Shown here: one piece after another, positions 28,841-35,137 of the stretch
Layout of the letters: each line of letters opens with the position of its first letter
How positions within the stretch are numbered: position 1 is the stretch's first letter
Assembly (NCBI GenBank): GCA_037176885.1
Contig: JAWWNJ010000001.1
Coordinates: 2,852,001 to 2,916,000, forward strand
Source of the DNA: Favolaschia claudopus
Lineage: Eukaryota; Basidiomycota; Agaricomycetes; Agaricales; Mycenaceae
Length of the DNA stretch: 64,000 bases
Direction of reading: 5' to 3'
Position numbers and translations under genes: made by a program
The notes under the pieces: generated by a model
What the model was told of the DNA's origin: nothing
Seen by the model: the letters and a program-made list of their open reading frames with translations, nothing else
Database searches by the model: none

Positions 28841-28940
28841 TTTATTCCTAATTAATGTTATTGCCGTTTGTATTACATTGCAGCCAATACATGTACAGAA
28901 GTGGTTAGTAATGCAGAGATCGTAGAAACCGCCAAAAGGC

Positions 28941-31139
28941 CTAAAGGTACAGAATATCCCCGTGATACTCGCAGGGCTGTCTCCCGATTGCCACCCCCTG
29001 CCCCGGTGCCAGCACCCTTGTCAACAGTCGCCGTTCTGTTTGTCCAGGCCGCTGAGGCGCAAACACCAGAACACCCAGCTCGTCCGTTACCTCGTCGATG
29101 AAATGATATTTCTTGCACACGCCTTGCCCGAATGGATGCGGAAACATCTCCTCGTCAGCCGGTTCGTCCGCTTCGAGCAGAAATTCATGTGCAAGAGCTT
29201 CCCTGGGCGTCAGGCGTTTATAAGCCTCGGGCTCGAGAAGACCCTGCAGTAGACTGAACGCAAGTTCAACATCGCGCTTGTGCGCCTCGCGCTCTGCTTG
29301 GTCCTTCAAATTAGTGACAGATGGAGGGACAGAAGCGGAGGATGGAGAGGAGCCGCGGACGGGGAAGAAGAGGATGCAGGGGGTAAGCAATCGCTTATCA
29401 CGGTATCATCCGCCGCATAATTTGTTTGGTTATGAGGATAATGTTCGGGGTTTGGTTTGGGAGGAGTGTAGAGGTCAGGATTTTGTTTCGTGACGAAAGA
29501 ATGCCATGACATGCCACCATCGGTCACGGAAGGGACATTGGTCGCAAATGTTCGACCTGCATACGGCAATGAGTGGCTTTGAATAGACATTCTCAATAAA
29601 CAGCCTACTGTGAAGTGTTGCAACAATTTCCATCTTCTTCTTGCCGAGGATGCAAGCGATCTCCATCAATGCTTCATTATCATCCGAACATTGAAAGAGA
29701 GGAAATTTCCCTGTCAGGAAAAACAATAGAATGGTTCCGGCCGCCCCACACATCGATGGCTAAGATGTTCATAAGTCCGGGAACAGCAAATGCGAGCCAC
29801 AGAGAAGGATGTACATACCCCCTGTTTGCTCAGAGCATTTGAGAAGTACTTCGGGAGCTCTGAATCCACGCGTGCCGGCTCGATTGGCCTTGGAAATCGG
29901 ACTCGAATCATGGATGAGCATGGCTTGATGAAAGGGAAAAATTCTGACATACCGATTGTCATTAGCGAGATAACCCACTTTGTCCGAGTTTGAGTTGGAA
30001 TTTGCTCTTGCACTTTTCTGCTTTTCCTTGATCCTTGGCGCAGAGTCATAATCTTTGCGGGAAAATAAACGACCATGCGGGTATTCGAGACTGGCAGCGG
30101 TATGAAAGCAGGCACCCTGTATTTGTTTTGGAGACGACGTAATCCGCTGGGGGCAGAAATCAGCAATAGGATAGCAGTGAGATATACATGATCCTCACGC
30201 AAGCGAGACCGAAATCACAGAGAATGCCTTGACCCGTTCGTGGATCGAAAAGAAAATTGGCGGGCTTAACATCTCTGTGTATGATTTGTCGGGCATGGAT
30301 GTCGCATAAAGCTCGAAACATGCTACGAAGATACGCCTTGATGCCGGGCATCGTCAGGGTGCGATAAAATTCCTGAAGCAGTGAATACTTCATTCCAAGT
30401 CATCTGATAGAACACTCACTCGAAAATCCTCATTACGATGATAAGGCATGATGGCCACAACTTGGTCTTCATGTCGGAAAGCGGTAATTAACTGGGAAAC
30501 ATGACGGCATCCCCTGCAGTCCGCCAGGATCGAAATTTCATTCCGTATTCGTTCAGGATTACTCGTCACGTAGATTCGCTTGATGGCGACAAAGATTTTG
30601 GTGCCTTCTGGTTGTGGCACGGATTGGTAGTGTGCAGACGAAGATGGCGGGTGGCGTCCAAGCCAAGGAGCGTTGTCCCACTTATCTTGATAGCCCAAGT
30701 CGAGAGCTTTGTATACGGATGAGAACGTTCCAGTGCCCAACCTATCCACGAGTTTGTAGTCTTCTGTGAGCTGGGGCACAGCTGCCTCGAGCTCAGCAAT
30801 CTCTTCTTCGATTTCATGCCGTTCTTCCGGGCTCTTTTTCAAGATGGTAAACTCCTCATCGCTGTCCTCCTGAAAATCCATGTCCTCCTCGTGGTCTTGC
30901 TCATCCTCGTTCATAGGTTCCGGTAGGTCATCGTCGCTGTCCATCGCCTCCTCGTCTGTTGTGGCGCGCAGGCTGGGGATATTGTAGTCGGGAATAATGT
31001 TCGTTAAGTGGGTATGGTAATTTTCGACCTCTGCCACTTGATATCCGTCCAGAGGATCGTCCGACGACGCGGGATTGTCTCTTTGAGCGTTGTGGTAGTT
31101 CTTCAGATGCAGTTTGCTCCGTTCGTCAGAGGATCCACG
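28941..31139 (-). CDS. CDC7: CDC7/Hsk1 kinase, exon 1 interrupted by a mobile element
   Basis: Kinase motifs in order: [16 protein letters not shown] (P-loop), VAIKRI (Lys), [14 protein letters not shown] (catalytic loop), LCDFGLAC (DFG) and [13 protein letters not shown] (APE), with the long inserts between DFG and APE and near the C-lobe that mark CDC7. It phosphorylates MCM helicase to fire replication origins, with Dbf4. The frame in the N-terminal exon runs to 31139, where a 1,927-bp element begins; no ATG occurs in frame at that edge, and a start at 31157 would be TTG. The original start exon lies at 33067-33114. Without splicing the next in-frame ATG is at 30944, upstream of the kinase domain. 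ATG 31309 inside the element could feed the frame by splicing, but I found no clean donor. Whether a functional protein is made is not clear. Confidence 0.88.
31137..31139 (+). other. Target site duplication, left copy (ACG)
   Basis: ACG immediately before the left end CACCGG. The second copy is at 33067-33069. Reading on the minus strand each is the codon CGT of CDC7. Confidence 0.75.
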
Positions 31140-31218
31140 CACCGGAGTTTGAAGCAAATGATTCGCCGTGAGAATGCTGCGAGAATGAGATGTTTTCGCA
31201 GGATATCTGCGGGATAAT
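31140..31218 (+). repeat. Left terminal inverted repeat
   Basis: It starts CACCGGAGTTTGAAGC. Positions 1-37 match the right end exactly, then TGCG, ATGTTTTCGC and TGCGGNATAAT match at the same offsets (66 of 79). It includes the last in-frame codons between the element end and 31157. Confidence 0.85.
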
Positions 31219-31420
31219 AGCAGAAAAGCATCCCCCGAGAATCCCGCAACGATACGCCGTTTTCACGAGATATTTGAGTAATATTCACGACATTATCGCA
31301 CGATTCCATCTCGCCACTGTTTTCCCTTCCACTTCAAAATTGATATGGGTCGACGAATTGAATTTATATTGCAATTACATACTACAAAGGCAATACCTAC
31401 TAGACGATTAAATGCAAGTG

Positions 31421-32072
31421 CTATCCACGCGACCTAGTGCACCCCGCACCTCTTGCTAGCCATGACGGCCGAACAGTGGCCCGTAGTGATTCAACGCGGG
31501 CTCGTTTGACCTGAGAGTGACGACGATGTTATATATCAGCCGTCCGCTTGCAAAGAGCAGGATGGTATAGCAATCCATGACTTACCGACTTTCGGAGCTC
31601 GAGCCGCACCCGGTGCCGGATACACCCCAAGACGAGACTTTCTACTTCAGCTTATGAACGTCTTTAGTTGAGGCACATTTCAATGTGGAAGAATACGCAC
31701 CTGTGGTGCCGCCAATCGCTAAACGATCCGTACAGTCGCCATATGACGCCCCGCAACGCTCAGAACGAGTCAGATCGTACGCGGCAAGGAGAGAGGCACA
31801 CATGTACATACACTCATTAATGGACAGCGTCAGTTCCCACTGATCTGAGACACCGCCTACGCGGACGGAAGCTTCCGTCCGCTTGAGGGAACTCGTGAAT
31901 GGTGCGAAGAACTTGGAACAAGCAAAATTGACGCACCTGTACTTGATTTCTATAACAGACGCGTCTATTGAATCGAGCAGGGACTACAAGGTGCAGGGAA
32001 ACAATGTCATCAACTGAAAAGTCGAAATCCCAAAGTACAGCAAGTGCTTACCGGCATTGAGATCCCAAACAT
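31421..32072 (-). CDS. Unknown gene within the mobile element, four exons
   Basis: Model: exons 32052-32072, 31701-31983, 31586-31644 and 31421-31510, with introns of 68, 56 and 75 nt and strong donors (gtaagc, gtgcgt, gtaagt). The start is ATG at 32072 (MFGISMP), then SLLDSIDASVIEIKYRC, KFFAPFTSSLKRTEASVRV, WELTLSINECMYMCASLLAA and RSERCGASYGDCTDRLAIGG, followed by a basic C-terminus ending with TAG 31421-31423; about 150 residues. I do not recognise a family; it does not look like a transposase. All exons stay open across about 450 nt, which supports a real gene. An alternative first exon in another frame (VLGAGDGDTIGRR) could extend it upstream. Confidence 0.4.
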
Positions 32073-32092
32073 GAGTTCTCCGTCCTATTGTA

Positions 32093-32560
32093 TCACCGTC
32101 GCCCGCCCCGAGCACCTGCCGTAAGGAAAGGGGGTAAAAACCTCGCAAGCCGTGTTAAGAGACACCGGAATGAAACAGAAGACAGGCGGGCAGTGGACAT
32201 GAGGATGAGTATGGGTAGAGGGAGCGCAATCAGCGTAATACATACGCACATATATGGCGCGACGGAACCCTGTACCGAGCCAGCTGTAGGCCTCGCGCCA
32301 ACGCTATTCAGCGATGATATATACGTGGAGGTAGGGGAACGTGCTGGGCTACATGAATGCGTCAGATCTGCTATGGACATCCAACGGCAAAGACTACATA
32401 CCCTCAGATCGACCCAGAGTCGAAGGGATACCTGGACCTCGCTCTGATTGGAAGCACCGCGTCCCAAACCCGCTGGGACATTCCGCGCGCTCTAGGATAC
32501 AAGGAAGAGAGTTTTGAGTCTCCAGTGAGCTCATATACATTTTTTCCACGCGCCGCGCCG
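32093..32560 (-). CDS. Possible second gene in the element, uncertain
   Basis: On the minus strand an open stretch reads GRGASNQSEVQVSLRLWVDL, then a hydrophobic segment YMCVCITLIALPLPILILM, ending at 32093. Further upstream, about 32700-32560, a hydrophobic stretch (WAFLSAITLSLALALVS) could be joined by an intron with donor gtgagc. The start is not clear. Both the opposite strand and other frames are also open here, so coding status is weak. If real, it would be a small membrane protein. Confidence 0.2.
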
Positions 32561-32787
32561 ATGCTCACTGTCCCAAAGGCCTCCAGAATGCACGAGGGTC
32601 GGATGTCGTGGAAACTAATGCAAGCGCCAGACTGAGAGTAATTGCGGATAAGAATGCCCAAGAACGCAGCGGCGGGTGCAGATGAGCTATAGAATAGCAT
32701 GTCCCAAGTTTCAGGTGCCCGGCGGCAGGACTCAAGGAGAGCTGGCCGTTCTGTCGAGGGTGATGATGGGAGATGAGAAGCAAGTCG

Positions 32788-32870
32788 ACGCGTGACGTGA
32801 CGTCACAACTGTGACCGCAGTGACAAGACGCGTCCTGACGCGTCCTCAGGTCCAGCTGTCGACGCGCGTC
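32788..32870. promoter_or_regulatory. Cluster of ACGCGT and TGACGTCA sites within the element
   Basis: In 83 bp: ACGCGT at 32788-32793, 32828-32833 and 32838-32843; the CRE palindrome TGACGTCA at 32798-32805; GTCACA-AC-TGTGAC at 32802-32815; and the palindrome GACGCGCGTC at 32861-32870. ACGCGT is the yeast MCB motif bound by the MBF factor in G1/S genes. Binding here is inference. Confidence 0.45.
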
Positions 32871-32987
32871 ATGATCAGCAGTGGAGCAAGAAACCAAAAG
32901 AATGGACAAGTCTCGGGTTGGAATGCTGCTAAAATTTTGTTTATACATGGTGTACTCGTGAAATAATTGCTGGCTAATATTTGTGTG

Positions 32988-33066
32988 ATTATTCCGCAAA
33001 CATTTGGCGAAAACATGCTGTTTCCGCAACATTCTCACGGCGAATCATTTGCTTCAAACTCCGGTG
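32988..33066 (-). repeat. Right terminal inverted repeat
   Basis: Reverse-complement partner of 31140-31218; see there. It contains three related short motifs, GTTGCGGAAAC, TGTTTTCGCC and TGTTTGCGGAAT, which look like repeated protein-binding sites. Confidence 0.85.
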
Positions 33067-33069
33067 ACG
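33067..33069 (+). other. Target site duplication, right copy (ACG)
   Basis: ACG immediately after the right end CCGGTG, matching the left copy at 31137-31139. Confidence 0.75.
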
Positions 33070-33114
33070 CGCCTCTAAGGGATTGGACGAATGCTGCGAG
33101 AAAAGTGGGGCCAT
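33067..33114 (-). CDS. CDC7: CDC7 first exon segment, separated by the element
   Basis: ATG at 33114 (context GTTTATGGCC) opens a 16-codon run, MAPLFSQHSSNPLEAR, ending exactly at 33067 at the right end of the element. The last codon, CGT, is the target duplication (ACG on the plus strand), also present at 31137-31139. If one copy is removed with the element, these 16 codons continue in frame into [11 protein letters not shown] of CDC7. The upstream sequence has a TGTTCGCGAACA palindrome (33172-33183) and a CACGTG box (33188-33193), in keeping with a promoter. Confidence 0.75.
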
Positions 33115-34637: not shown

Positions 34638-35137
34638 GGCGTATATAGATTCTCGGCGAAGCTGGTGTGGTCAATGATAGAGCGAGCAATCAAGAGCAGG
34701 CGCAGCCGGTGAGAAGATGGACGAAACGAACAAGAGGGAGAGTCAATATCAGAAAACACAGAACCTTGACAACGCCGTGACAAGTGCTTACGGGTTACGA
34801 GGGCGTTTGTATGTATGAGGCCCTGTGCGGACGACGGTGAGAGCGATGCTAGGCGCTGCTAACAGACACCCAGGACGGTGATAAACGAATGTGGAGGAGC
34901 CGGACAGAGAGACAGCCAGCGAAGGACGGAAGATAATGTCACACTGTGACATTTTGTGACATCTGCCAGTTTCCTGTCACACTTTATCACGCCAACTGTT
35001 TCATCCGCAAAGACGGGCATCTTATGCCTAGTTACAATGTACACTCGCAAGTAAGCTAAAAAAAAGTCCATCTCTAGTCGTGACTCCTCAATGACCAATT
35101 ATCCAGATTCACAGACGGCGGCGTCACAAAGTCCGTC
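34638..35137. promoter_or_regulatory. Intergenic region with GTCACA-C-TGTGAC palindrome
   Basis: 500 bp upstream of the surface protein. At 34938-34950 it holds GTCACA, C, TGTGAC, inside a perfect 15-bp palindrome at 34937-34951. TGTGACA at 34955-34961 and TGTCACA at 34974-34980 follow. No gene is seen. Confidence 0.4.

Follow-up and report, generated by a model that had tools for sequence, protein, structure and literature searches.

The CDC7 locus and its insertion

The stretch of the Favolaschia claudopus genome analysed here (the window: 64,000 nt, positions 2852001-2916000 of contig C1 in a 264.6-Mb, 460-contig assembly; all positions below are those within the window) carries on its minus strand a gene for CDC7, a kinase that is essential in yeasts for S phase. 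The gene is divided within its first coding exon by a transposon-like insertion. The first part of exon 1 (33067-33114, MAPLFSQHSSNPLEAR) provides codons 1-16, and the second part, beginning with codon 17, occupies 30420-31136. The remaining exons follow at 30199-30372 (exon 2), 29953-30146 (exon 3), 29819-29901 (exon 4), 29609-29759 (exon 5) and 28941-29556 (exon 6, with the stop codon). This model was built from homology and splice sites, and across the three alleles described below it has six exons and five introns of 47-59 nt.

The insertion spans 31140-33066 (1,927 bp) and separates codon 16 from codon 17. It is bounded by terminal inverted repeats of 87 nt each, the left at 31140-31226 (plus strand, starting CACCGGAGTTTGAAGC) and the right at 32980-33066 (minus strand), which are 82% complementary when compared as inverted repeats. 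A copy of the trinucleotide ACG abuts each end (31137-31139 and 33067-33069). Joining the two flanks with a single ACG gives a continuous, in-frame reading of the CDC7 N-terminus.

Two uninterrupted alleles are present in the same assembly

Three contigs of the assembly match the flank at 28900-31139: C1 itself, C142 (96%) and C15 (95%). The flank at 33067-37000 matches the same contigs at 97-99%, with other contigs giving short or weak pieces only. C142 and C15 both run through the insertion site uninterrupted, each with one ACG (CGT on the coding strand), and codons 1-16 are identical on these two contigs and C1. The presence of two empty sites in one assembly excludes chance as the origin of the joined reading and, since each has a single ACG, is more direct proof of the element's ends and of its 3-bp duplication than an open frame by itself. 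The initial annotation had proposed, from the C1 sequence, that an element with exact ends at 31140 and 33066 and an ACG target duplication splits the first coding exon of CDC7, and that the empty site restores the frame. The inverted ends, the paired ACG and the two empty sites bear out the first of these points, and the reading of C142 and C15 through a single ACG into a full-length CDC7 bears out the second.

The CDC7 genes of C142 and C15 have 660 codons each, are uninterrupted and end at the same stop. When searched against PDB, the C142 product finds yeast Cdc7 as its best match (E 5e-68, residues 123-460) and human CDC7 as its second (E 9e-45), with other kinases at E 4e-21 and weaker; a Pfam search identifies Pkinase (E 4e-39).

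We also considered whether the C1 transcript could be repaired by removal of the element as an intron. The scanned stretch holds 29 GT/AG pairs that would keep the frame of exon 1, an example being the donor GTGAGA at 33038. The original junction is restored by none of the 29, each of which changes or deletes residues, and the excised intron would measure 1,795-2,116 nt, whereas the five native introns have 47-59 nt. Splicing of this kind is very improbable.

The three haplotypes differ elsewhere in the window as well. At 35061 the C15 haplotype carries 2,158 bp that are additional relative to C1 and C142 (L033 2090-4249), and a simple check of this segment did not find clear inverted ends.

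The CDC7 start is conserved and is cut off from the kinase

The N-terminus stranded beyond the element is a conserved feature of CDC7. Eight of ten relatives that were fetched begin M-A/G-...-SQHSSNPLE, and the other two begin downstream and are named 'partial' at source. In a wider search, restricted to proteins 0.55 to 1.75 times the length of the 233-residue query, SSNPLE is present in 96 of the best 120 of 334 matches, and lies within the first 25 residues in 83. It is missing from the other 24 of these 120, some of which have close variants and others of which start downstream. Comparison with relatives, which the initial annotation had put forward as a check on the MAPLFSQHSS start, thus supports that start, and a chance open stretch is rejected as its explanation because the start is common to relatives. 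The two ATG codons named in the same annotation, at 33114 and 30944, are found at those positions. Its description of the first as lying in good context does not hold: a good start context has a purine at -3, where ATG 33114 has a T (CGGTTTATGG).

The 42 open in-frame codons that lead from the nearest upstream stop within the element (31263) to the exon contain no ATG, and the reading of the second part of the exon has no methionine ahead of ATG 30944 (30942-30944, minus strand). The next usable start is therefore the one at 30944, the first in-frame ATG downstream of the insertion.

Possible further lesions in the divided allele

Relative to C142 and C15, the C1 allele carries two private 1-bp insertions or deletions (indels), being one base longer in exon 5 near 29747 and one base shorter in exon 6 near 29359. 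With the flanks joined, the C1 reading meets a predicted stop after 431 codons, in the kinase domain and inside the part aligned with yeast Cdc7 (residues 123-460). Whether these indels are real or are sequencing errors, in which case the transposon alone breaks the allele, is evenly balanced in our assessment. Both indels change the length of a base run, the assembly is an Arrow-polished PacBio assembly at 20.47x depth, and the substitutions described below leave little time for two neutral indels to have accumulated, all of which point to error. On the other side, no frame-shifting indel occurs on any of the three haplotypes in 5,331 bp of five other open reading frames (ORFs), where three 3-bp indels are the only length differences; one of these ORFs was checked by homology and two lack a Pfam match, so that not all are proven genes. 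Nor is the C1 contig error-rich in general: counted per private substitution, 1-bp indels are not in excess there (11/467 on C1, 6/184 on C142 and 3/152 on C15, measured outside CDC7 and the control ORFs over 15,636 bp, part of which is likely coding). Two shifts placed at random over 3 x 7,314 coding bases would both fall in the split allele with a probability of ~0.008, a figure calculated post hoc.

Private substitutions in CDC7, counted after exclusion of one three-way site and one gapped codon, are predominantly synonymous on all three haplotypes. The non-synonymous to synonymous counts are 8:26 on C1, 1:12 on C142 and 7:32 on C15, compared with 3.4:1 expected at random. The C1 allele has thus been under selection through most of its history, and its lesions are either recent or, for one or both of the indels, errors.

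These data bear on whether the C1 allele might still function. A transcript beginning in or before the element could be translated from ATG 30944 to give a kinase without its N-terminus; the initial annotation had raised both this start and a transcript initiating inside the element. ATG 30944 is suitably placed ahead of the kinase domain, the C1 substitutions still look selected, and both indels may be errors of 20x PacBio sequencing. Against this, the N-terminus that would be lost is conserved in relatives, and if the indels are real the kinase ends after codon 431 wherever translation begins. We regard a functional C1 product as unlikely, with the qualification that both use of ATG 30944 and a transcript starting in the element are disfavoured only if the exon 5 and exon 6 indels are genuine. 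To judge by its sequence, the C1 allele would most likely be null or nearly so.

The inserted element and its family

The genome contains at least 38 matches to the element. Copies of the same 1.9-kb size on C19 and C157 are 88% identical to it, and longer members of the family include 8-kb copies on C48 and C16 and an 11.2-kb copy on C46. The CDC7 copy corresponds to 1,695 bp at the start and 180 bp at the end of the 8-kb copies and lacks ~6.1 kb of their interior; the ~52 bp that lie between the two matching blocks (1696-1747) have no match in the 8-kb copies compared. All six complete copies start with CACCGG and end with CCGGTG, and five of the six are flanked by a 3-bp target-site duplication.

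One 8-kb copy has a gene whose product has relatives in Mycena, Schizophyllum, Armillaria and other genera, a relative among them bearing the name 'Transposase family Tnp2'. Of ten aligned transposase relatives, nine contain C(2)C, nine H(3-4)H and nine YERxNG, and the two 8-kb copies (L036 and L037) contain all three motifs. C(2)C and H(3-4)H stand ahead of the residue that we take to be the last catalytic E. The Pfam domain to be expected of an EnSpm/CACTA transposase is presumably Transposase_21 (PF02992), and no transposase domain was detected by Pfam in the ORFs and five relatives scanned, the relatives and five of the ORFs at E up to 10. Membership of the superfamily consequently rests on the ends, the duplication and the motifs. 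Families of this kind in fungi are assigned to EnSpm on CAC..GTG ends and 3-bp duplications in the part of the source consulted (PMC12730594), and CACTA-type elements have been described in fungi (PMC1636069, likewise consulted in part). On these sequence features the insertion in CDC7 is a non-autonomous, internally deleted copy of an EnSpm/CACTA-type transposon.

Some observations weigh against this account of the insertion. As noted, the expected transposase domain escapes Pfam; the complete copy on C157 lacks an exact 3-bp duplication; and the nearest other full-length copies are just 88% identical, so that the search revealed no donor for the insertion.

Several other features of the family were seen. 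The 8-kb copies have a second long ORF (L036 5995-7086, minus strand; L037 2613-3683, plus strand) with a coiled-coil-like stretch and Pfam matches that are all below threshold, which could encode a helper protein. Directly inside the right end of the CDC7 copy, at 32784-32880, there are several GACGCG-like repeats; subterminal repeats of this sort are bound by the helper protein of CACTA elements. The 11.2-kb copy holds an ORF for reverse transcriptase and RNase H (L038 1585-4644; Pfam RVT_1, E 2e-19), a non-long-terminal-repeat-like element nested in the transposon. The same family-member end and flank are present in both contigs of the pairs L043/L044, L045/L046 and L041/L042, and some insertions are therefore either of greater age and common to two haplotypes or situated in duplicated DNA. 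An exact 14-bp direct repeat links the left terminal repeat (31172-31185) to codons near the CDC7 start (33089-33102). We rejected local copying as its source, as the C19 copy has an identical 87-bp left end, and the repeat is probably due to chance.

Three apparent haplotypes

The contigs C1, C15 and C142 recur together at four stretches over ~53 kb of the window region. A similar pattern was found elsewhere with 2.5-kb pieces picked by coordinate on C2, C5 and C10. The C2 piece matches C31 and C197 (both 95%) over nearly its whole length. The C5 piece matches C57 and C104 (both 90%) to a like extent, with additional partial matches of 71-72% on the same three contigs. The C10 piece matches C45 and C107 piecewise, at 83-89% and 77-91%, again over nearly the whole query. 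Three copies are thus present at all four unlinked places that were usable for the test (C1/C15/C142, C2/C31/C197, C5/C57/C104 and C10/C45/C107). Four further queries were repeat-rich flanks of element copies; three of these matched repeats, and the fourth, the flank of the C19 copy, found a single main partner instead of two, with C149 matching it at 86-89% in three pieces.

The three haplotypes are not equally distant from one another. Over 8.9 kb C142 and C15 are 97.9% identical, and each is 95.6-95.9% identical to C1. The same closeness is seen at two other stretches (98.4% versus 97.2-97.3%, and 97.7% versus 95.3-95.9%). At an unlinked place C31 and C197 are 99.2% identical over 1 kb, compared with 93.6-94.0% to C2. 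The pattern of two close haplotypes and one divergent haplotype is therefore seen at two unlinked places; CDC7 itself does not have it, with pairwise identities of 96.7, 95.8 and 96.8%.

The published genome of strain CIRM-BRFM 2984 comprises 461 contigs totalling 264.58 Mb (PacBio at 20.47x depth, Falcon and Arrow) and 49,883 gene models, has 86.8% of BUSCO genes duplicated, and is presented as being large in common with other Mycenaceae genomes (PMC10905254). A term search of that text found ploidy, haplotypes and dikaryon absent, returning only the sentence on duplicated BUSCO genes and two reference titles, and a search of the open-licence literature found no paper on the ploidy of Favolaschia. 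From the contig comparisons, the 265-Mb genome looks like three haplotypes of ~88 Mb each. Such an arrangement would fit a triploid, a diploid-plus-haploid or a three-nucleus mycelium alike.

Discussion

How can a growing strain carry a disrupted copy of CDC7? We propose the following sequence of events. A 1.9-kb deletion copy of a cut-and-paste EnSpm/CACTA-type transposon entered CDC7 between codons 16 and 17 on one of the three haplotypes, duplicating 3 bp of target; it was probably mobilized in trans by a transposase that a longer family member encodes. In the C1 allele the kinase is thereby no longer joined in frame to its conserved N-terminus, and the uninterrupted genes on the other two haplotypes would supply the enzyme. 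It is very probable, in our assessment, that a transposon insertion splits one of three CDC7 haplotype alleles in this way and that two intact alleles shelter the mycelium, and this shelter most simply solves the puzzle posed by the break in an essential gene. A pattern in the gene that sits uneasily with a lost allele is the 8:26 substitution ratio on C1, which implies either that the break is recent or that some function is left. The initial annotation had suggested that the break might be tolerated through an intact second nucleus in a dikaryon. The intact copy in that suggestion is present; there are, however, two such copies, and three haplotypes, in whatever nuclear arrangement, describe the mycelium better than a dikaryon.

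A more specific history can be put forward tentatively. CIRM-BRFM 2984 may be a hybrid-type triploid, with two similar haplotypes and one divergent one, in which the CDC7 break marks an early stage of gene loss, the divergent subgenome giving up a redundant copy that could be spared only once the genomes had merged. We consider this doubtful as it stands. If true, it would mean that since the insertion this invasive fungus has stayed in the merged condition and has passed through no haploid stage with that haplotype by itself.

The insertion is an event of an ordinary kind, for which the proof is unusually clean in that a single assembly supplies the insertion together with both empty alleles and both uninterrupted genes. 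The more surprising part is the apparent three-haplotype genome, which, if true, would change the gene count (49,883 models) and any argument on invasiveness that draws on genome size. The broken CDC7 allele offers a ready marker for sheltered lethal mutations in a multi-haplotype mycelium.

The element shares with EnSpm/CACTA transposons (the CMC group, of the fungal Tnp2 type) its CAC..GTG ends, 3-bp duplications, C(2)C and H(3-4)H motifs and late E. It differs in having ends of CACCGG rather than CACTA, in the lack of a detected Pfam transposase domain and, for the copy in CDC7, in the lack of a transposase gene. Its internal structure resembles that of maize dSpm, an internally deleted, non-autonomous CACTA copy: both retain the two ends and have lost the interior with the transposase. 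In the F. claudopus element, by contrast, the ~52-bp junction stretch is unmatched in the longer copies, and mobility is putative. The Plavaka elements of basidiomycetes belong to the same wider transposase group and share the 3-bp duplication size. In the part of the source consulted, PlavakaB duplications are 2 or 3 bp and Plavaka ends are TGT..ACA or CATCA..TGATG (PMC12730594), unlike the CACCGG..CCGGTG ends of all six complete copies here.

At the level of the gene, a search of the open-licence literature listed no paper that, judging by its entry, concerns a transposable-element insertion in CDC7. Heterozygous transposon nulls of essential genes are common in diploids and dikaryons, and the CDC7 locus has in common with them one broken allele beside intact ones. 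It differs from them in being set among three haplotypes instead of two and, possibly, in the two further lesions of the broken allele.

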